From the NCBI RefSeq assembly GCF_001306415.1, contig NZ_LDJX01000006.1, positions 248,001 to 312,000 of the forward strand: a stretch of DNA of 64,000 nt, written 5' to 3'. Under the pieces are notes generated by a model. The model did no database searches, had not been told where the DNA came from, and saw only the letters and a list, made by a program, of their open reading frames with translations. The DNA is from Croceitalea dokdonensis DOKDO 023. Its GTDB lineage: Bacteria; Bacteroidota; Bacteroidia; Flavobacteriales; Flavobacteriaceae. The translations under genes were made by a program, and so were the position numbers. This document shows, one piece after another, positions 13,140 to 22,774 of this stretch (positions within the stretch are counted from its first letter, which is position 1; the number at the start of each line of letters is the position of its first letter).

Positions 13140-16100
13140 TCAAGACTTTATCTTTTTCCCAAACTCCAGTTGAAGTTCACTCTTTTTTAGTTGCTCGTTA
13201 AGACGTTCCACTTCCACTGCAATAAAGGATCTAAATTTTTTCTCGGCATTTTTTAGTCGCGTATTCAACACTTCATAAACGTCCCGCTGCTGGTCGGTGG
13301 GTTTAAAATCGACGCCAAAACCACCAATGTCGCTGGCCAAGGCACTTAAGCGACCGTATAATTTCATGGGCGAACGGAACGCATCTTCCCTAGCACCCGT
13401 TAAATGGATATCATACAGGGCAGCGGCAATGTTCTTTGATTTTTTAATGAGGTCATCGGCAGTTTTACTGTCTTTTCTTGATCTGAGCTGTGGCTTAACT
13501 TCTTCCAGTTCTGCCCTGATTTCTTCAATATCATTGATCATGGTGACCGCAAGGTTCATCGCATCGCGCAGCGCTAAGGAAAAGGCCACTTGTTCTTCAA
13601 TATCTTCTACAGTGCCGGTGGTGCTGGAGTCTTTGAGCACGGTAAAATCCCTTACAAATTCTTGTTCCCCAATGACCAATTTGGCCTTGTAATTGCCCGG
13701 CACCACACGGGGGCCATATTGTCCGCGCCAAAGGTCTAGATCCCAGGTTACCAATGGTCGCCAACCTTCCCCATTGAGCTGTACCCAGGGCCTGCCCGGT
13801 GGGGTGGTCTGTAAACGGGGCTTGTAGGTGGGTTCATAACGTAAGTCCCAAATGGTACGATGCACCCCCGCTGAGGTTTCTCCTTTTAAGGTACGCACCA
13901 ATTCATTGGATGCCGTTAGTATGTGTACCTCCACTTTCTGGTCCGTACTATCTTTTAAGTAGTAATTGACATACGCCCCATAAGCCGGATTTTGGCCGGA
14001 GTTCATGCTAGGACCATCGGTTTTAATGGCTTGTTGGTCTTGGAATCGGTAAGCCTCCCTTATACTAAAGAGGTGGGCCTTTTTGCCTTTTGCTTCGTCA
14101 TATTCGCGTAGGGCAGAAATATCATCCAAAATGTAATAGCCCCTCCCATAGGTGCCTACCACCAAATCATCAAAGCGTTCTTGGACTTCTAGCCAGTAAA
14201 CGGGCGCAGGGGGTAGATTGTTACGCAAACGCATCCAATGTTCCCCATCGTTATAGGTGATGTACAGTCCATTATCTACCCCTAGGTATAACATGCCCTT
14301 CCGTTTGGGGTCCTCTTTAATGACATGCGCAAAACTGTGTACTGATTTTGGAACAGAGGCACTGATCAATTTCCAAGATTGCCCATAGTCTTCTGTTTTG
14401 TATACGTAAGGGTCAAAATTGCCCATTTGGTGCAAATCTACCGTGATATAGACTGTTCCTTTTTTATATCGGGAAGGCTCAATATTGGCGATGGTACCCC
14501 ATTTGGGCAAATTGGGAATATTACCGGTTACATTGGTCCAGTTTTCTCCGCCGTTTCTGGTCAATTGCACCTGACCATCGTTACTTCCCGTCCAAATAAC
14601 TCCCGGTTCCAAGATTGATTCTTCGATACTGAATAGCGTAGCGCCATCAAAGGTCATTAAATTATCAATGGCAATGCCCCCGGAATTCTGTTGGTGGGTC
14701 TTATCGTTCAAGGTCAGGTCTGGACTGATCACCTGCCAACTCTGTCCGTTGTCATCGCTTTTATGCACAAACTGGCTGCCCACATAAACGCGGTGCTTGG
14801 TATGGGGCGAAAAGGATAAGGGAAAGTTCCAATGCCAACGGTATTTTAATTTTCCAGGTTCCCAGCCGTATCCAGCTTCTGGCCAAACACGTACATCACG
14901 GGCATGGCCGGTCCTGGCATCATAACGTTGCAAGCCACCATCATAACAGCCAGACCAAACAATGTTGTTGTCCAAGGGGTCAGGTTGGGCAAAACCACTT
15001 TCGCAACCGCCCACACCTTTCCATAAGCCCAATGGGATATAGCCCTGCCTGCTGTTGCTCGGACCTTTATAAGAATAGCCATCTTGCCTATTGCCATAAA
15101 CATTATAAGGTACTTGGTCATCTACCGAAACGTGGTACATCTGTGCAATGGGCAATACAATACGTTGGTAGGTTTTACCGCGGTTTAGACTAATACTGGC
15201 GCCACCATCGTGTGCCACCATGATACGGTTGGCATTGGTGGGATCTACCCAAATATCATGGTTGTCCCCTCCTGCACTGTAGCCCGATTTGTAGGTTTTG
15301 CCCCCATCTTTGGAAATACTATATTTAACGGATGCAACGTAAATTTCGTCTGGATTATCTGTGGAAACCGCCATACGGGTATAATAGGGCGCACGCTCAT
15401 TAATGTCATGGTTTCTGGTCTGGAGCGTCCAAGTTTCACCAAAATCTTCCGAGCGATACAGGGCGGGACTATCAATTTCGAACAAGGCGTACACAATATT
15501 TGGGTTGGAATGTGAGATGCCAACTCCGGTTTTCCCTACAGGATTGTCCTTTCCTCCTGGCAAGCCGTTTTCATTCAAATTTTTCCAACTTTTACCACCA
15601 TCCATGGAACGATAGATGCCGCCACCCGGTCCCCCGCTACGCAAGCCCCAGGTATTGATATGGATGGACCACATGCCCACCAACAATTGTTCTGGGTTTT
15701 GGGGGTTTAAAGCAATGTCCGCTGCGCCTGTATGTTCATCAACAAAAAGGATACGTTCCCAACTGTTGCCCCCATCAACGGTTTTGTACACTCCTCGGTC
15801 TTGCTGGGGGCCATAGGTATGCCCAAGGGCAGCAACGTAGACAATATCCGGATTGGTGGGGTGTACCACAATTCTGCCAATGCGCCCCGTTTTCTCCAAG
15901 CCCATGTTTTTCCAGGTCATTCCGGCATCCTCTGACTTGTAGATGCCGTCGCCCATGGCATGGGCAGGGCGAATGATAAAAGTTTCCCCAGTACCCGCCC
16001 ATACGATATCTGAATCTGTAGGGGTGATGGCCACTGAACCAATGGAAGAAGCCTCTTGGTCGTCAAAAATGGATTTCCATGTGACGCCGCCATCCGTGGT

Positions 16101-16292
16101 TTTCCATAGTCCACCAGATGCTGCACCGATATACGTGATCATAGGGTCTCCCGCTACGCCAGCAATGGCTATGGTGCGGTTTCCCTCTGGACCAATAAAC
16201 CGAAAGTTAAAATCTTTGAAATCAGATAAGTGGTCTTGACCCAACAGCGAGAAGGTCATTACCAAAAACAGAATGAGCAGCCTTAATTTCAT
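13140..16292 (-). CDS. Exported sortilin/BNR-repeat propeller protein, second paralogue
   Basis: 1050 residues with a clear signal peptide (MKLRLLILFLVMTFSLLG). The N-terminal ~700 residues are a BNR/Asp-box beta-propeller: TTDGGVTWKS, SEDAGMTWKN, TVDGGNSWER, SMDGGKSWKN and SEDFGETWT. A beta domain (about 740-860) with GVHRTIWDLRYEP follows. The C-terminal ~170 residues are helical and charged, possibly coiled coil. It shares its core with the 7112-9979 protein but has a different tail. Related proteins are called glycosyl hydrolase or sortilin-like, and no catalytic residue can be identified. It is monocistronic. A role in binding or processing secreted material is inference. Confidence 0.87.
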   Translation of the reverse strand: MKLRLLILFLVMTFSLLGQDHLSDFKDFNFRFIGPEGNRTIAIAGVAGDPMITYIGAASGGLWKTTDGGVTWKSIFDDQEASSIGSVAITPTDSDIVWAGTGETFIIRPAHAMGDGIYKSEDAGMTWKNMGLEKTGRIGRIVVHPTNPDIVYVAALGHTYGPQQDRGVYKTVDGGNSWERILFVDEHTGAADIALNPQNPEQLLVGMWSIHINTWGLRSGGPGGGIYRSMDGGKSWKNLNENGLPGGKDNPVGKTGVGISHSNPNIVYALFEIDSPALYRSEDFGETWTLQTRNHDINERAPYYTRMAVSTDNPDEIYVASVKYSISKDGGKTYKSGYSAGGDNHDIWVDPTNANRIMVAHDGGASISLNRGKTYQRIVLPIAQMYHVSVDDQVPYNVYGNRQDGYSYKGPSNSRQGYIPLGLWKGVGGCESGFAQPDPLDNNIVWSGCYDGGLQRYDARTGHARDVRVWPEAGYGWEPGKLKYRWHWNFPLSFSPHTKHRVYVGSQFVHKSDDNGQSWQVISPDLTLNDKTHQQNSGGIAIDNLMTFDGATLFSIEESILEPGVIWTGSNDGQVQLTRNGGENWTNVTGNIPNLPKWGTIANIEPSRYKKGTVYITVDLHQMGNFDPYVYKTEDYGQSWKLISASVPKSVHSFAHVIKEDPKRKGMLYLGVDNGLYITYNDGEHWMRLRNNLPPAPVYWLEVQERFDDLVVGTYGRGYYILDDISALREYDEAKGKKAHLFSIREAYRFQDQQAIKTDGPSMNSGQNPAYGAYVNYYLKDSTDQKVEVHILTASNELVRTLKGETSAGVHRTIWDLRYEPTYKPRLQTTPPGRPWVQLNGEGWRPLVTWDLDLWRGQYGPRVVPGNYKAKLVIGEQEFVRDFTVLKDSSTTGTVEDIEEQVAFSLALRDAMNLAVTMINDIEEIRAELEEVKPQLRSRKDSKTADDLIKKSKNIAAALYDIHLTGAREDAFRSPMKLYGRLSALASDIGGFGVDFKPTDQQRDVYEVLNTRLKNAEKKFRSFIAVEVERLNEQLKKSELQLEFGKKIKS

Positions 16293-16400
16293 GGGTGATA
16301 TGCTTTGGTTGATTATAGTTCTTAAATTTACGCAACCTAAAACTTTTTTCCAGAAAAGCTAGGTGATATGTTAATTAGAGTGATTTTTAATTGATTGAGC

Positions 16401-16500
16401 TAGTCAGAAATCTACCAAAGATTTTATCAAAAATCTTTTGGAAATAGATGCTTCTCGATACAAATTTTCGCATTCGTCGAAAATCGACTCGAAGTGACTA
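16401..16500. repeat. Palindromic intergenic element related to the one at 10521-10715
   Basis: TAGTCA (16401-16406) and TGACTA (16495-16500) bound a 100-base element. Inside are a CCAAAGATTTT hairpin (16415-16441, one bulge) and a perfect ATTTTCG/CGAAAAT hairpin (16464-16484). It shares CTTCTCGATAC and ACTCGAAnTGAC with the element at 10566-10682. It sits 38 bases before the aminopeptidase gene, in a 245-base gap with no other visible feature. Confidence 0.6.
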
Positions 16501-16537
16501 CATTTAGCTAGTAAATAAAAATGAAATAGCAACCTCC

Positions 16538-17830
16538 ATGAAATACGATGTATTACCAAATACCTTATTTGTTAAGAACCGCAAAAAGTTTACCACCCAA
16601 ATGCGTCCTAAAAGTATTGCGGTGTTCAATTCCAATGATATTTATCCCATAAGTGCAGATAGTACAATGCCCTTTGAGCAACACAGTGATATCTTTTATT
16701 TAAGCGGTGCGGACCAAGAAGAGACCATTTTAGTTTTGTTTCCGGATGCGATGGACACCAAGCACAAAGAAATCCTTTTTGTGCGTGAGACCAATGACCA
16801 TATTGCGGTTTGGGAAGGAGCAAAGTTGACCAAAGCACAAGCTACTAAAGTATCCGGCATAGAAACCATTTATTGGCTTTCTGATTTTGATAAGGTATTT
16901 TTTGATTTGATGACGGAGGCCGATACTATTTATTTTAACACCAATGAACATTACAGACAGGCCGTAGAGACAGAAACCCGGGAAGACCGTTTTATAAAGA
17001 AGTGCAAGCAGGATTTTCCGGCGCACCAATGGGCAAAAAGCAATCCTATCCTCCAACGGATACGTGGGGTAAAAGAACCTGAGGAACTAGAGCTAATGCA
17101 GATGGCCTGTAATATTACGGAGAAGGGGTTTAGACGATTGTTGGGTTTTGTGAAACCCGGCGTTTGGGAATATGAAATTGAGGCAGAGCTTTTGCACGAA
17201 TTTGTAAGGAACCGCTCAAAAGGATTTGCCTATACCCCCATAATTGCTTCAGGCAACAACGCCAATGTGCTCCATTATATAGAAAATAACCAGCAGTGTA
17301 AGGATGGGGATTTAATTTTGATGGATGTGGCCGCAGAGTACGCCAATTACTCCAGTGATTTAACCCGCACCATACCCGTTAATGGAAAATTTAACAAGCG
17401 CCAAAAAGAGGTGTACAATGCCGTGTTGCGCGTAAAAGATGAAGCAACCAAATTATTGGTGCCAGGCACTCTTTGGGCAGAATATCATAAGGAATGTGGA
17501 AAATTAATGACCTCAGAATTATTGGGATTGGGGCTTTTGGATAAGGCAGATGTCCAAAATGAGAACCCCGATTGGCCTGCGTATAAAAGATATTTTATGC
17601 ATGGTACCAGTCATCATATAGGTTTGGATACCCATGACTACGGCGAATTAAAAACTCCGATGAAAGCCAATATGGTCTTTACCGTGGAACCAGGTATTTA
17701 CATCCCTGATGAAGGTTTTGGGATACGATTGGAAGATGATGTGGTGATTCAAGAAAGCGGAGAGCCATTTAATTTGATGGCAAACATTCCGATTGAAGCG
17801 GAGGAGATTGAGGAGTTGATGAACAGTTGA
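16538..17830 (+). CDS. pepP: Xaa-Pro aminopeptidase (M24 family)
   Basis: A 430-residue metallopeptidase that removes an N-terminal residue preceding proline. The N-terminal domain (1-170) is the creatinase-like lobe. The C-terminal pita-bread domain has the five metal ligands: Asp263 and Asp274 in MDVAAEYANYSSDLTR, His355 in HGTSHHIG, Glu384 in TVEPGIYIP and Glu399 in IRLEDDVV. There is no signal peptide, so it is cytoplasmic. The length fits aminopeptidase P (about 430-440). It may be cotranscribed with the small membrane protein 67 bases downstream. Confidence 0.93.
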   Translation: MKYDVLPNTLFVKNRKKFTTQMRPKSIAVFNSNDIYPISADSTMPFEQHSDIFYLSGADQEETILVLFPDAMDTKHKEILFVRETNDHIAVWEGAKLTKAQATKVSGIETIYWLSDFDKVFFDLMTEADTIYFNTNEHYRQAVETETREDRFIKKCKQDFPAHQWAKSNPILQRIRGVKEPEELELMQMACNITEKGFRRLLGFVKPGVWEYEIEAELLHEFVRNRSKGFAYTPIIASGNNANVLHYIENNQQCKDGDLILMDVAAEYANYSSDLTRTIPVNGKFNKRQKEVYNAVLRVKDEATKLLVPGTLWAEYHKECGKLMTSELLGLGLLDKADVQNENPDWPAYKRYFMHGTSHHIGLDTHDYGELKTPMKANMVFTVEPGIYIPDEGFGIRLEDDVVIQESGEPFNLMANIPIEAEEIEELMNS

Positions 17831-17897
17831 AATTTGAAATTAAACAGACATTTGGAACTGTCATATCCAGCGCAGTTGAGATAAAAGTGAGAAACCT

Positions 17898-18080
17898 ATG
17901 TTTAATAAAATGCTTTTATTGTTTTTACAACAACCCGATATCGAAAAAAAGATGGAGGAAGCCCCCAATAGTGCTTATGAAACTGGGGTGTTGATTGGCA
18001 CGTATTTGCCCTTTGTGGTCTTGGTGATTATTGCTTATGCTATTTATTACTATTCAAAGAGGCGAAGGGAAACCAAATAA
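17898..18080 (+). CDS. Small single-span membrane protein
   Basis: A 60-residue protein. A short N-terminal hydrophobic stretch (MLLLFLQQ) precedes a polar linker and one strong membrane helix (about residues 31-52, GTYLPFVVLVIIAYAIYYY), then a basic tail KRRRETK, giving a probable N-out, C-in orientation. An alternative start is the Met at residue 5. No family is recognised; small proteins of this shape are common in flavobacteria. It ends 6 bases before the palindrome array, so the array forms the 3' flank of this transcript. Confidence 0.6.
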   Translation: MFNKMLLLFLQQPDIEKKMEEAPNSAYETGVLIGTYLPFVVLVIIAYAIYYYSKRRRETK

Positions 18081-18086
18081 CTTCAT

Positions 18087-19268
18087 GTCCTGCTGAGGCA
18101 CGAAGCATCCCTCGTTTGAGTGAGCAGGTGGCCGTGAGCAAGTGACCGTGGGATTCTTCCCGATGGTCAGAATGACAATATCATTGAACCAAAATACAAA
18201 TGTCCTGCTGAGGCACGAAGCAACCCACGTTTGATTGACCAAGTGTTCCGTGAGCGAGTGACCGTGGGATTCTTCCCTATGGTCAGCATGACAAAATGCT
18301 GTTACTTTGTCCTGCTGAGGCACGAAGCATCCCACGTGTGAGTGAGCAGGCGGCCGTGAGCAAGTTGGTGTGGGATTCTTCCCGATGGTCAGAATGACAA
18401 ACCGCTGTTCCTTTGTCCTGCTGAGGCACGAAGCATCCCTCGTTTGAGTGAGCAGGTGGCCATGAGCGAGTGACCGTGGGATTCTTCCTGATGGTCAGCA
18501 TGACAAACCGCTGTTCCTTTGTCCTGCTGAGGCACGAAGCATCCCCTCGTTTGAGTGAGTAGGTGGCCGTGAGCGAGTGAACGTGGGATTCTTCCCTATG
18601 GTCAGAATGGCAGTATCGTCGGAACAAAACATTCATGTCCTGCTGAGGCACGAAGCATCCCTCGTTTGAGAAAGCAGGTGGCCGTGAGCAGCTGATGGTG
18701 GGTTTCTTCCCGATGGTCAGAATGACAAAATGCTGTTACTTTGTACTGCTGAGGCACGAAGCATCCCTCGTTTGAGTGGCTAAGGGTTTCGTGAGCAGCA
18801 GGTAGTGGGATTCTTCCCAATGGTCAGAATGGCAAACCGCTGTTCCTTTGTCCTGCTGAGGCACGAAGCATCCCTCGTTTGAGAAAGCAGGTGGCCGTGA
18901 GCAAATGACCGTGGGATTCTTCCCGATGGTCAGCATGACAAACCGCTGTTCCTTTGTCCTGCTGAGGCACGAAGCATCCCTCGTTTGAGAAAGCAGGTGG
19001 CCGTGAGCAAGTGACCGTGGGATTCTTCCCGATGGTCAGAATGACAAACCGCTGTTCCTTTGTCCTGCTGGGTCACGAAGCAACCCTCGTTTGAGTGAGC
19101 AGACGGCCGTGAGCAAGTGACCGTGGGATTCTTCCCGATGGTCAGCATGACAAACCGCTGTTCCTTTGTCCTGCTGAGGTACGAAGCATCCCTCGTTTGA
19201 GTGAGCAGGTGGCCGTGAGCAAGTGACCGTGGGATTCTTCACTTCGCTGCGCTACATTCAGAATGACA
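18087..19268. repeat. Tandem array of 11 imperfect-palindrome units (106-116 bp each)
   Basis: Eleven near-identical units begin GTCCTGCTGAGGC at 18087, 18202, 18309, 18415, 18521, 18637, 18743, 18850, 18956, 19062 and 19168. Each unit reads as left arm, centre, right arm, linker. The left arm (TGTCCTGCTGAGGC...ATCCC) and the reverse complement of the right arm (TGTCATTCTGACC...AATCCC) are diverged copies, so each unit can fold into one long stem. The centre is a 14-base direct duplication (GTGAGCAGGTGGCC, GTGAGCAAGTGACC). Linkers are of two kinds, giving 106-107 or 115-116 base periods. The last unit ends in a variant CTTCGCTGCGCTACATTC. Open frames within it are periodic by-products. It fills the whole gap between 18080 and 19300. 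Confidence 0.95.
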
Positions 19269-19299
19269 AAAAGAACTTTCCGACTATTGAAAATGTGAA

Positions 19300-19614
19300 T
19301 CACTGAAGAAATGAACCTTCTAAAAATTCTAAATTAGGATTGGTTGATTTGATTAAATCTACTTTTTTTACTCGAAGCCAACCCTTGATTTCCTTCTCAC
19401 GGCTTATAGCCTCTTGAACCCAACTATACCTTTCATAATATAATAGGTGTTTACATTTATACTTAGCAACAAAACTTTTTGAATTTAAGCTAATCGCATT
19501 TTGATGTTCTCTTAATCGTCTATGCAAATTGTTAGTCATGCCTGTATATATGACCGTTCGATTTTTATTGGTCAAAATATAAACGTAATAATTGTGCCAA
19601 CCTTCTTTAGACAT
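19300..19614 (-). CDS. GIY-YIG nuclease family protein lying between two palindrome arrays
   Basis: A 104-residue single-domain GIY-YIG protein of the small, YhbQ/UPF0213-like kind. YYVYILTN (9-16) and VIYTGMTNNLHRRLREHQ (21-38) give the GIY and YIG strands with the catalytic Arg. SREKEIKGW (71-79) gives the metal-binding Glu and following Lys, so the active site looks intact. The gene is AT-richer than neighbours. It is flanked by array 1 (ending 19268) and array 2 (starting 19827), with no other gene in between. Family members cut or process DNA, sometimes structured DNA; any action on the palindromes is inference. Confidence 0.88.
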   Translation of the reverse strand: MSKEGWHNYYVYILTNKNRTVIYTGMTNNLHRRLREHQNAISLNSKSFVAKYKCKHLLYYERYSWVQEAISREKEIKGWLRVKKVDLIKSTNPNLEFLEGSFLQ

Positions 19615-19826
19615 AAATTTAAGATACTAAAAGATTCTTAATCTAATCACACATTGCCTCTCCCTTTTTTAGGCGATGTGAAGACAACAAGTATCCTAAG
19701 AGTGAATGATTTTAGGTGGCGAGTAGGGTTTTCTGGACTATGATGTTAATTAGGTTGTGAGGAGTTTCTTGTCTGCCAAAAGGCAGGCGGGTTCCTTTAG
19801 TTTAGTTGGACAAAACGTATGATTTT
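19615..19826. other. Intergenic spacer between the GIY-YIG gene and array 2
   Basis: This 212-base AT-rich stretch lies upstream of the GIY-YIG gene. It contains a small perfect hairpin, CTGCC-AAAA-GGCAG (19773-19786), followed by GCGGG. No open frame or exact TAnnTTTG box for the nuclease was seen. Confidence 0.5.
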
Positions 19827-20150
19827 GTCCTGCTGAGGCACGAAGCATCCCGCGTATGAGTGGCCCAGGGTTCCGTGAGCAGCAGGTGGTGGGATTCTTC
19901 CCGATGGTCAGAATGACAAACCGCTGTTCCTTTGTCCTGCTGAGGCACGAAGCAACCCTCGTTTGAGTGAGTAGGTGGCCGTGAGCAAGTGAACATGGGA
20001 TTCTTCCCGATGGTCAGAATGACAATATCGTTGGACCAATTAACTTCATGTCCTGCTGAGGCACGAAGCATCCCTCGTTTGAGTGGGCAGGTGGCCGTGA
20101 GCAAGTTAGTGTGGGATTCTCTACTTCGCTGTGCTACATTCAGAATGACA
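19827..20150. repeat. Second array of 3 palindrome units, same family as 18087-19268
   Basis: Three units start at 19827, 19934 and 20050 in the same orientation as array 1. The second-to-third interval is 116 bases, using the long linker (ATATCGTTGGACC). As in array 1 the last unit ends in the variant CTTCGCTGTGCTACATTC before CAGAATGAC. Together with the 19615-19826 spacer it accounts for the gap to the AbiH gene, apart from about 40 bases. Confidence 0.93.
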
Positions 20151-20189
20151 AAACAAAACTATGGGCACTCAAGATAGAAGTGAGAAATC

Positions 20190-21452
20190 TCAATTATCTT
20201 TTTTCTGAAAACGAATATTTTGAGGTAAGGGTTGACAAAGTGATTTATTGACCACCTTGGCACGCATCATTTTTTTGTCATTAAAATGGCGAGACATATT
20301 TTGGATGATTTCGGTAAAATTATCCGTGCCATCTTCTCTCTGATAATAAAATACTTTTATAGAACGACAATTATCATGTTCAAAAATTGTATTAAGTAAT
20401 GTTCGATCAGAAAGGCCACAAGAATGCCCCATGACATACACTTGAAATTTATCAGAATCTATATAATCGAGAAGGTTTTTGTAATTGGAATTTTGAGAAT
20501 ATTTAAAGGATTTAAAGTTTTTTAGGTATTCATTATCATTGAGGTTTTCAATTGATTTATAATCCCCATCCATTTCATCTCCAAAACCAAAATTTACAGG
20601 GTTGTTCATCTTATTTGATAAAATACCATGAATGTTGTTTTGTAAACTTTGATATTCTTGTTTATCTATCTCAAATAAATATTGACTGGTAGTCAAAGTG
20701 TAATTGAAATTTAGAACATAGGTTCTTGTAAGATGTCGTTCACCTTTTTTCTCTTTTTCAAGGAGAGCGTCGATATCTGTTTTGTCTTCTTTAGCATTAA
20801 ATTCATCAAGTAATTTTGATTGATTATTCAAAAGTGAAATTGGTTTTAAAAACTCGTACATTTTAATCCATTCTCTATTAGCGAATTTGTTGAAATAATA
20901 TTTATCAGAAACATTTGTTATTAGATAATCTTCAAATAAGTCTCTAATCTCTGCAAATTCAGAATTTAGCCTTTCAATGCTTTTTTTGTTTTTCTCTATC
21001 TGATTTTGTTCAAAATCTTCTTTTGTTCCGGAATAGTGTGAATCTTTTCTTTTTGAAATTCTTTTGAGCTCTTGATAATATTCATTTTCAATGTCTACCC
21101 AATTATTTGTGCATATTACATTTAGCCTTTTGAAAAATTGATTTTTGAATTCAAATACAGTAATTGTATCTCCCCTTTCATTTTGAGTCTCAATAATGAC
21201 TAATTCTTTATTATATCGATATTTAAAACGCTTAGATTGAGATTCAAAATTTTCTTTTAGGGTTTTGAAATCTTTATGTCCTTGATTAATTAATCCGATG
21301 TGTTTGGGACTTATGTAGACTAACTTATTTGTTAATACATCTTGATATGAATTTATAAGATTGACCCAAAAGTGATTTATGAAATGGGAGTATGATGTTG
21401 GTAATCCATGCGCCAAATCAAAGCCGTTGCCTAGTATTATAAGTTTGTTCAT
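20190..21452 (-). CDS. AbiH-family abortive phage infection protein
   Basis: A 420-residue protein matching the AbiH family by its N-terminus (LIILGNGFDLAHGLPTSYS), a nucleotide-binding-like Gly-rich start. The shared later motifs are VLNFNYTLT, NIHGIL and YVMGHSCGLSDRTLL. AbiH proteins abort phage infection; their biochemical action is poorly known. The length is normal and no frame break is seen. The gene is markedly AT-rich, with Lys/Asn/Ile-heavy codon use unlike the brnQ and suf genes, which suggests horizontal acquisition. It stands alone between palindrome array 2 and brnQ. Family assignment is strong; activity here is inferred. Confidence 0.88.
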   Translation of the reverse strand: MNKLIILGNGFDLAHGLPTSYSHFINHFWVNLINSYQDVLTNKLVYISPKHIGLINQGHKDFKTLKENFESQSKRFKYRYNKELVIIETQNERGDTITVFEFKNQFFKRLNVICTNNWVDIENEYYQELKRISKRKDSHYSGTKEDFEQNQIEKNKKSIERLNSEFAEIRDLFEDYLITNVSDKYYFNKFANREWIKMYEFLKPISLLNNQSKLLDEFNAKEDKTDIDALLEKEKKGERHLTRTYVLNFNYTLTTSQYLFEIDKQEYQSLQNNIHGILSNKMNNPVNFGFGDEMDGDYKSIENLNDNEYLKNFKSFKYSQNSNYKNLLDYIDSDKFQVYVMGHSCGLSDRTLLNTIFEHDNCRSIKVFYYQREDGTDNFTEIIQNMSRHFNDKKMMRAKVVNKSLCQPLPQNIRFQKKDN

Positions 21453-21499
21453 GACTTAAAGTTAACTGAAAAGAAACAGATTTCTCAGCCTCCATATAG

Positions 21500-22774
21500 C
21501 TATTGGGATTTCGTCGAAAGGATATTTGTAATCAAAAAAACCAAAAGCGCAGGCAGCACCCAACCCATTTGAAATTCACTTAAGGGTATCCATTTTACAA
21601 AATCTTGGGTAGCTTCACCAAGACCTATACTTCCTAAAAAATCAGGAACACTAAAAATGATTGTTGTTACCACTACCCATTGAAATACTTTTTTTGAGGC
21701 ATACTTTTCCGGCAATACATTCAGAAGAATCAACACAATGGTAATTGGGTAAATAAACATAAGTGCTGGTAATGCAACGGCAATGATATACCCCACGTTA
21801 AACTGTCCCATGACCACTCCCAAAACGCAACCAATCACAGCTGTGATCAGGTATGCCCTTTTAGTATTTTGGAATTGTGCCTTCACAAAATCGGCAGTTC
21901 CAGTAACAATGCCCACCGCAGTGGTAAAACAAGCTAAACCCACTAAAATGCTCAAGAACAGGTTTGCCGTATTCCCCAATGTCTTTAGGCTTATGCCGCT
22001 AAGCAGGGCAGTCCTGGAAATCCCATCGTCAAACTGCCCATGGAATAAGGCACCGGTAAGCACCAGCCCCGTGTAGATAAAGAACAGTCCAAGACCGGAA
22101 AATAGGCCTGCTTTGGAAATTGCCCTCTTCTTGTCCCGATATGGAATTTGGTCATTTTTTAGGTTAATGGAAATAATAATTACCCCTCCCACCACAACGG
22201 CACCAATGGCATCAAAGGTTTGATAACCCTCTAAAATACCGCTGCTAAACGGATTTTCTAACTGGTTTTTACCAAAATCGAATTCATATCCAAACAGGGC
22301 CCGGAATATCATGCAAACTAGAATTAGAATGATGGCCGGCGTCAGCACCTTTCCCAAAGCATCTAAAATTTTGGATCTATTGATGACAAAAAGAAAGACA
22401 AGGCCAAAATAGATAACACTCGTTAAAAGGGATGAAGTTTCAAAAAAAGGGGCTATTCCCATTTCATGGGTAACCGAAGCCGTTCTTGGTGAGGGCAAAC
22501 CAATAGAGATGGCATACACCAAATAACAATAGATCAAACTAAAGGTAGGGGACACTTTTTTTCCAAAGTCAAAAAGGGTTCCCTGCAATTTGGCGTGGGC
22601 AACAATCCCCAAAATAGGAATGAAGACGGCAGAAAGACAAAAACCCAAGGTCACCAACCACCAAAAATCCCCAGACCTAAAACCAAGTTGTGGCGGTAGA
22701 ATAAGATTCCCAGCTCCAAAAAACAAGGAAAAAAGTGCGAATGAGACTACAAGAAGATTCTTTTTTGTAATCAT
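21500..22774 (-). CDS. brnQ: Branched-chain amino acid transporter (LIVCS family)
   Basis: A 424-residue inner-membrane carrier with about twelve hydrophobic helices, taking up leucine, isoleucine and valine with sodium or protons. The N-terminal FFGAGNLILPPQLG motif is characteristic of BrnQ, and a second Gly-rich stretch (GLPSPRTASVTHEMG) also fits. The length matches the family (about 430). It is transcribed alone. The 260-base upstream gap to the next gene holds a CGATAA/TTATCG inverted repeat near 22857 but no exact -7 box. Confidence 0.93.
   Translation of the reverse strand: MITKKNLLVVSFALFSLFFGAGNLILPPQLGFRSGDFWWLVTLGFCLSAVFIPILGIVAHAKLQGTLFDFGKKVSPTFSLIYCYLVYAISIGLPSPRTASVTHEMGIAPFFETSSLLTSVIYFGLVFLFVINRSKILDALGKVLTPAIILILVCMIFRALFGYEFDFGKNQLENPFSSGILEGYQTFDAIGAVVVGGVIIISINLKNDQIPYRDKKRAISKAGLFSGLGLFFIYTGLVLTGALFHGQFDDGISRTALLSGISLKTLGNTANLFLSILVGLACFTTAVGIVTGTADFVKAQFQNTKRAYLITAVIGCVLGVVMGQFNVGYIIAVALPALMFIYPITIVLILLNVLPEKYASKKVFQWVVVTTIIFSVPDFLGSIGLGEATQDFVKWIPLSEFQMGWVLPALLVFLITNILSTKSQ

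Follow-up and report, generated by a model that had tools for sequence, protein, structure and literature searches.

The GIY-YIG gene lying between two palindromic arrays in the window (the whole 64-kb stretch of DNA analysed in this work) is probably the dedicated nuclease of the repeats around it, and gene and repeats together would amount to a minimal REP-type mobile system that resembles the RAYT systems while being unrelated to RAYTs. This reading draws on frequent bracketing of such genes by inverted palindromes, type-for-type matching of nuclease and repeat, discrete ends in a clean case, polymorphism at the insertion sites, purifying selection on the gene, and the lack of a Y1 match in the window genome. 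The features of the locus are collected in Table 1.

Table 1. Features of the window locus, with positions counted from the first letter of the window.
Feature	Position	Strand	Basis or remark
GIY-YIG nuclease gene, single domain, 104 aa, ATG start	19300..19614	-	ORF, Pfam and fold model
Left array with 11 palindromic units (TGTCCTGCTGAGGCACGAAGCATCCC ... GGTCAGAATGACA), mostly at steps of 106-107 bp	18086..19268	+	
Right array with 3 palindromic units of the left array's family	19826..20150	+	
Putative left-arm remnant of the element, AAGAATCT, located 17 nt before the ATG	19632..19639	-	short
Small ORF of 60 aa bordering the insertion on its left	17898..18080	+	
AbiH-type abortive-infection gene, neighbour directly beside the right array	20190..21452	-	

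The window protein matched PF01541 with 59.2 bits against a curated cut-off of 22.6. Its only Pfam matches were GIY-YIG, GIY_YIG_2, and T5orf172, and it gave no match to PF01797 (Y1_Tnp), which sets it apart from the RAYT and IS200-IS605 proteins. In an alignment with 22 relatives, 15 columns were invariant, among them Y12, Y23, G25, T27, R33, H37, E73, and K74, while E61 was nearly invariant across the 22 sequences; we take the invariant tyrosines, arginine, and glutamate to fit the GIY-YIG catalytic pattern. The AlphaFold2 model of the protein had a mean pLDDT of 93.3, and a Foldseek search of the PDB with this model returned a single match at E ≤ 0.001, the UPF0213 protein 1zg2 (E 3.8e-4), followed by chains of Slx1 with E values from 0.012. 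UPF0213 (1zg2, 1ywl) is also the nearest family by sequence profile; in predicted fold, UPF0213 and Slx1, a nuclease that acts with Slx4, are the closest. The ratio dN/dS was 0.03-0.19 in 12 of the 13 pairs of GIY-YIG genes tried, with dS above 1 in several of them (the pair L085/L091, which contains a stop, was left out), and the gene is, judging from these coding sequences, under purifying selection.

Both the fold and the selection would also suit a role in genome maintenance, in which a nuclease like Slx1 or UPF0213 resolves extruded cruciforms and the repeats are its substrate rather than its cargo. However, an enzyme acting in trans need not sit between its repeats, and the up to 9 GIY-YIG matches per genome, as well as the presence of the gene in some relatives and its absence from others, argue against such a role, which we regard as highly improbable.

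The Pfam match and the conserved residues bear out the intact-looking active site that the sequence-only reading had noticed in this gene. Its description of the surroundings, with arrays of one family bracketing the gene (11 units before and 3 after) and no other gene between them, holds as well. The pattern TGTCCTGCTGAGGCACGAAGC, searched with up to three mismatches, had 14 matches in the window, all on the + strand and split 11 and 3 by the gene, against a chance mean of 0.00. We found no further convincing gene between array and gene, the open reading frames inside the arrays being mechanical readings of the repeats, and an Rfam scan of positions 16000-22000 of the window, which also served as the search for host introns, gave no match at the gathering thresholds. 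Counted from start to start, successive units within the arrays are 106-107 bp apart in 9 of 12 cases and 115-116 bp apart in the other three. The last unit of the left array ends in a variant right arm, TTCACTTCGCTGCGCTACATTCAGAATGACA, and much the same variant ends the last unit of the right array. In relatives with an intact left arm (compare L036-L039, L043, L047, and L051), the end of that arm, GAAGAATCT or GAGGAATCT, lies 13-17 nt upstream of the ATG, and the left arm of the window gene seems, from its sequence, to be reduced to the remnant listed in Table 1, an assignment that is only tentative because the remnant is short.

The insertion site of the window is variable within the genus. 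The M24 peptidase gene that neighbours the insertion is present in 7 of 8 genomes of the genus, the window genome included, and in the six other congeners that have it the junction contained neither a GIY-YIG match nor a copy of the window array. Downstream of the peptidase gene, a branched-chain amino-acid transporter gene follows directly in L209 and L210, and the gap between the two genes is occupied by other repeats in L208, by another gene in L206, and in L211 by a homologue of the small ORF (76% identity), after which the transporter gene comes almost directly. In L207, the AbiH gene comes after the peptidase gene with no array or GIY-YIG gene between them; the view of this locus ends 1.5 kb from the peptidase gene, and the far side of AbiH lies beyond that point. 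We do not think that the AbiH-type gene is part of the element.

Elsewhere in the window genome, the same pattern was found 11 more times at three places, giving 25 matches in total. The 3-kb loci around these three places contained no GIY-YIG match, and proximity to the gene is therefore not obligatory. Two of the same-family arrays (G000:C1 297.4 kb, L012, and C12 50 kb, L016) have other internal sequence and spacings of about 144 and 172 bp. Because the spacing within arrays is nearly constant and both spacing and internal sequence differ among the arrays of this genome, tandem arrays such as those of the window look like later local duplications, a kind of growth that, by the look of it, would need no transposition.

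To examine the bracketing of the gene, the 250 nt before each gene were matched as an inverted repeat against the 250 nt after it. A score of at least 20 was reached at 60 of 106 loci compared with 30 of 1185 control positions at the same loci; three of the 109 loci were skipped, L044 and L109 because of N runs and L122 because it is short. The score stayed below 20 at the other 46 loci, including that of the window gene (score 16), whose copy is bracketed by arrays. Among the 21 nearest relatives, many have a left arm (e.g. TGTCATTCCGAGGCACGAGGAATCT) some tens of bases ahead of the start codon, with a complementary right arm just past the stop. The termini TGTCAT/ATGACA occurred at least twice within 250 nt of 88 of 109, 35 of 84, and 23 of 28 genes as against 2%, 13%, and 7% of control positions, in three sets that overlap in part and of which the 28-gene set comes from 198 Bacteroidota-wide genomes. 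Some Flavobacterium loci carry palindromes downstream only. The gene is often found inside a split palindrome, and the RAYT-like organisation of a gene between two inverted REPs holds for the class, not for every copy. The two arms of a gene also vary together: in the 34 of 200 genes that are cleanly bracketed, the gene's own left and right arms are 0.66 identical, compared with 0.49 for permuted arms and a maximum of 0.56 in 5000 permutations.

The type of repeat tracks the nuclease subfamily and not the host. This was examined in 83 genes out of a set of 84 different GIY-YIG genes, drawn from 35 genomes with one genome per genus and with the distant L128_2467 left out; the genes came from 30 matches taken as loci and 60 further stretches, a part of all matches. 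Because some clusters share neighbouring genes, pairs in which any of the flanking ORFs were alike (108 of 3306) were dropped. In the remaining pairs, a flank repeat was common to 46 of 67 different-genus pairs with at least 70% protein identity, compared with 3 of 1196 pairs below 40% (73 of 94 and 7 of 1222 before dropping). Between genera, flanks grow more alike as protein identity increases, and the Mantel-type correlation after dropping was 0.352, a value reached by none of 1000 free permutations and by none of 1000 permutations in which flanks were swapped among paralogues within one genome. Seventy of the 83 genes fell into 11 clusters (displayed from two genes upward, with at most 9 members each), most of which have their own palindrome at the gene ends; one cluster departs from this in having two palindrome types, and two clusters do so in having similar palindromes. 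Shared insertion hot spots or an inherited neighbourhood could also bring REPs and gene together, given that some clusters have neighbouring genes in common and that the repeats are mostly intergenic. Yet the signal survives when pairs whose neighbouring ORFs resemble each other are removed, and it does not extend to paralogues within one genome, among which only 3 of 87 pairs with less than 60% identity had a flank repeat in common; we consider this origin of the association extremely improbable.

The same matching was seen at the level of whole genomes in a sample of 120, one per genus. A pattern like the window's repeats (D) was present in 34 of them and a second pattern (B, GTCAYSCTGAACTNGTTTCAGSRTC with one mismatch) in 42, while the reversed control patterns were present in 0 for both. 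Genomes were assigned a D-type gene by a best match at E ≤ 1e-30, a cut-off chosen after the list had been seen, and a B-type gene by membership in a cluster at ≥ 60% identity, with genomes from which no genes were retrieved counted as lacking it. All 8 genomes with a D-type gene have D repeats and 3 of them B repeats; all 11 genomes with a B-type gene have B repeats and 4 of them D repeats. The two repeat families doubly dissociate with the two gene families. In G032 (D) and G098 (B), the only pattern matches are the gene's own arms, and the co-occurrence is therefore not fully independent of the bracketing. A second gene cluster (G009, G024, G061, and G115) likewise has the B pattern beside it, so the matching is not strictly one to one. 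Seven of the 34 D-positive genomes gave no GIY-YIG match at E ≤ 1e-10, among them G094 with 53 repeat copies, and these genomes may have lost the gene or may possess a more divergent one.

The sequence-only reading had likened this GIY-YIG class and its palindromes to RAYTs and REPs, and had named as checks whether the nuclease subfamily co-occurs with the repeat family and whether the repeats follow the phylogeny of the gene. Both checks come out in favour of the link, in the genome sample and in the sharing of flank repeats. The likeness stands to that extent, and what had been named as evidence against it, repeats abundant where the nuclease is missing, is seen in part, namely in the seven repeat-positive genomes just described. 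G094 itself is a candidate for either an orphan REP population or a diverged enzyme.

A further candidate for spreading the repeats is a Y1 transposase of the RAYT type, to which the GIY-YIG gene would be incidental. RAYTs are associated with GTAG REPs (PMC2817692, PMC3733652, as far as the accessible excerpts of both papers go). However, the Y1_Tnp profile (PF01797) had no match in the window genome and, over the 120 genomes, showed no association with the D or the B repeats (one-sided p 0.31 and 0.21), and the accessible excerpts of PMC3733652 state that no tyrosine transposase gene is flanked by CGTC repeats. We rejected RAYTs as the mobiliser on the Pfam results and give the idea virtually no credence.

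The gene together with its arms behaves as a discrete mobile unit that comes and goes at fixed junctions. Flavobacterium pokkalii has two copies of it (L060 and L066), 196 kb apart, which are aligned over ~430 bp ending at the arms with 86% identity; in the 600 nt on each side, only further REP arms match. The proteins of the two copies differ with dN 0.042 and dS 1.216, and the 27-nt left arm is identical. This comparison is the one clean case of terminal inverted repeats with discrete ends. The unit lies beside a glycerol-3-phosphate dehydrogenase gene in L066, L053, and L071, whereas with 31 genomes of the genus sampled only 1 of 30 loci, that of F. pokkalii itself, had it at this junction. 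At a class-II tRNA synthetase gene, 1 of 30 loci of relatives had the unit. A further junction, in 11 syntenic Flavobacterium loci, is that of a radical-SAM gene (the 601-aa gene, so identified by Pfam) and an MBL-fold gene. Two of these loci have the GIY-YIG gene between the two genes (in L337 it is disrupted), three have it beyond the MBL gene, and one has a different insert in its place. In the remaining five, it is on neither side within the DNA examined, and the radical-SAM and MBL genes nearly abut.

Beyond Bacteroidota, the sufB-sufC junction of Azospirillum lipoferum is occupied by a REP pair, the gene, and another REP pair, all of which are absent in four congeners. At one Sphingobium junction, the gene with its arms is present in TYG46, a solo palindrome in TYG74, and no such palindrome in TYG72 and TYG65. 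A target-site duplication was not readable at the asnS site, the radical-SAM/MBL junction, sufB-sufC, or the junction of fnrL and a response regulator, where the flanks are too diverged, and a search of plasmid records for empty sites with a Rhizobium CIAT894 query returned no informative record. At L366 and L375, GIY-YIG-REP units with differing REP types lie between sufB and sufC, in Azospirillum (annotated) and apparently in Shinella PSBB067, whose unannotated record matches the sufB and sufC stretches, raising the possibility of repeated insertion at this junction.

These junctions bear on the main rival explanation, homing of the gene into existing REPs. In this scenario, the REPs spread by other means, and a free-standing GIY-YIG homing endonuclease cuts gene-less REPs and is copied in by break repair, being specific for a REP type without mobilising it. 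GIY-YIG is a class of homing endonucleases, and those of the I-TevI and I-BmoI type share with the window gene the GIY-YIG catalytic domain and the appearance of a selfish insert; in contrast, the window protein is just about 100 aa long and lacks a separate DNA-binding domain, and the genes of its kind often have inverted REPs as flanks. Homing would fit the many loci where the gene lies within a split palindrome, the orthologous Sphingobium site with REP-gene-REP in TYG46 and a solo palindrome in TYG74, and the genomes that have repeats and no detected gene. It fits less well with the element copies at unrelated sites of one genome (F. pokkalii) and with junctions at which relatives are missing the whole unit of gene plus REPs and retain no such REP. 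No alternative mobiliser was found, Y1_Tnp having no match in the window genome and no association with the repeats, and type-for-type matching across phyla would presumably require repeated re-targeting of the endonuclease. We think homing rather unlikely. The solo palindrome of TomTYG74 (L382), set beside the REP-gene-REP of TomTYG46 (L374), could have arisen from gene loss by collapse or could be the pre-insertion state expected for homing.

We also looked at how the repeats fold. Each unit of the window is an imperfect palindrome whose stem has, by direct reading, 5 perfect pairs (ATTCT/AGAAT) followed by a GA/GA step and a loop of at least 5 nt, a shorter perfect stem and a longer loop than in the published CGTC-REP consensus with its 8-9 bp stem, as this is given in the accessible excerpts of PMC3733652. 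When three of the units were folded as single-stranded DNA, two scored as shuffles do (z -0.28 and -1.10) and one moderately better (z -2.10). Among five other arms, three folded far better than shuffles (z below -4), and two no better, a D-like arm (z -1.03) and one of a further family (z 0.05). Stems of 8 bp with loops of 4-5 nt were found in 3 of these 5 arms, and many arms from the plasmid records described below fit this geometry too. In 111 distinct D-type arms, one variable pair of the stem is complementary in 98 (46 expected) and the other in 107. The arms are laid out as a TGTC or CGTC head followed by the stem-loop, and an unpaired CGTC, TGTC, or CCTC head with a hairpin was found in several Bacteroidota families; the exception is one gene cluster whose palindromes have no TGTC head (ATTCCTGC...GCAGGAAT).

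Searching a plasmid collection with two relatives of the protein gave 32 and 33 records, several of them chromosome-sized. We took 16 loci from 15 of these records, leaving out most near-identical strains, and these comprise 11 from alpha-, 1 from beta-, and 2 from gamma-Proteobacteria, 1 from a cyanobacterium, and 1 from Bacteroidota. A strictly defined REP with head and hairpin lies within 250 nt of the gene at 14 of the 16 loci, compared with 22 of 320 base-shuffled flanks, which are a weak control; the other two loci have TGTCAT...ATGACA palindromes of the longer-loop type. Inverted matching reached a score of at least 20 at 13 of the 16 loci (not at L370, L371, and L372), compared with 35 of 240 swapped pairs and 0 of 16 reversed controls. 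One record of Sinorhizobium meliloti contains two GIY-YIG genes, each with a REP type different from the other's. At a Neisseria locus, CGTCATTCCCGCGCAGGCGGGAAT is present on both sides of the gene, and we take it to be dRS3, judging by the dRS3 consensus. In the Planktothrix agardhii plasmid p1 (L362), a GIY-YIG gene with TGTCAT palindromes lies between the gene of an MmeI-like enzyme and drmA, the DISARM helicase gene.

The palindromes, as far as their sequences tell, largely fit the published CGTC-tagged REPs. According to the accessible excerpts of PMC3733652, these have a head of CGTC, TGTC, or CCTC, a stem of 8-9 bp starting with AT, a loop of 4-5 nt, and a short tail, occur mostly as head-to-head pairs, and are found in Proteobacteria, Chlorobi, Bacteroidetes, Spirochaetes, and Thermotogae; the same excerpts include Neisseria dRS3, with which the neisserial CGTC-1 is equated, and Rickettsia RPE-4/-6 in the superfamily. 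The repeats beside the GIY-YIG genes share with them the head, a stem that often starts with AT, and the short tail, and the taxa in common are Neisseria, Sinorhizobium, Azospirillum, Novosphingobium, Sphingobium, and Bacteroidetes. What differs is the GIY-YIG gene alongside, since the excerpts of that paper report no dedicated enzyme and conclude that CGTC-tagged REPs 'apparently lack a dedicated transposase' (Di Nocera 2013, PMC3733652).

The comparison with REP/REPIN and RAYT systems, which are IS200/IS605-like, is similarly close. RAYT genes are flanked by inverted REPs and the two have matching phylogenies, as described in the accessible excerpts of PMC2817692, and the likeness to this organisation consists in a small nuclease gene between inverted REPs with a repeat type matched to the enzyme. 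It extends to a short head with a hairpin, to paired and clustered copies, and to copies elsewhere without the gene. Unlike RAYTs, the enzyme has the GIY-YIG fold and not Y1/HUH, and the head is TGTC or CGTC and not GT(A/G)G. In the open-licence PMC literature, which is the scope of our search and leaves preprints outside, we found no report of a link between GIY-YIG nucleases and REPs, and a prior report elsewhere is possible. In Moraxella, a RAYT and a GIY-YIG endonuclease are named as separate clade-specific genes, with no connection drawn between them, in the accessible excerpts of PMC9465073.

We lean, if only slightly, towards a wider proposal, in which the whole CGTC/TGTC REP superfamily, Neisseria dRS3 and the REPs of alpha-Proteobacteria and Bacteroidota among it, would owe its mobility to single-domain GIY-YIG nucleases as its missing enzymes. 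They would then constitute a second, independently evolved class of REP mobilisers in parallel to RAYT/GTAG, and their elements, at about 430 bp, would rank with the smallest bacterial mobile elements that are autonomous.

If the gene is indeed the dedicated nuclease of its repeats, the autonomous unit would be an inverted REP, the GIY-YIG gene, and a second inverted REP, about 430 bp in the clean case, and the non-autonomous copies would be short REP pairs without the gene, from which local tandem arrays could have grown. The single-domain, UPF0213/Slx1-like enzyme would recognise its own REP type when the hairpin is extruded, either on a single-stranded lagging strand or in a cruciform, and would cut at the base of the hairpin or at the head. 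Host repair or strand transfer would then copy the REP, or REP-gene-REP, into a new intergenic site. Recognition of the hairpin, its cleavage, and cleavage as the step that drives the copying are what we infer to be most likely from the combined analyses.

REPs are abundant in many bacterial genomes, and those of the GTAG kind have the RAYT as their enzyme. The type-matched GIY-YIG gene makes the question of an enzyme for CGTC-REPs cheaply testable, the materials being a protein some 100 aa long and a hairpin of 26 nt. Should our reading be correct, a group of small GIY-YIG genes would have its explanation, two unrelated nuclease folds would have converged on a hairpin-based spread of repeats, and the enzyme might serve as a very small DNA cutter guided by structure.

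Other GIY-YIG loci were observed as well. Three tandem GIY-YIG cassettes (L002, L003, and L005, at G000:C9, about 356 kb) lie downstream of tRNA-Phe, and at the two joints between the cassettes there is an apparent piece of the tRNA 3' end containing a GC-rich hairpin; these cassettes are possibly a second, tRNA-targeted GIY-YIG element. Similar GIY-YIG genes are located at two contig ends (L008, C9:105-242, and L010, C3:75973-76128), of which the L010 gene adjoins tRNA-Arg and the L008 gene a tRNA-like piece, possibly a repeat at an assembly break. At L007 (C1:4850-5065), cas2 and cas1, identified by Pfam, enclose a disrupted GIY-YIG gene that has copies of another palindrome (CTCGACTGCGCTCGACCTGACA) on its flanks; palindromes of this type were seen elsewhere beside a similar GIY-YIG subfamily.
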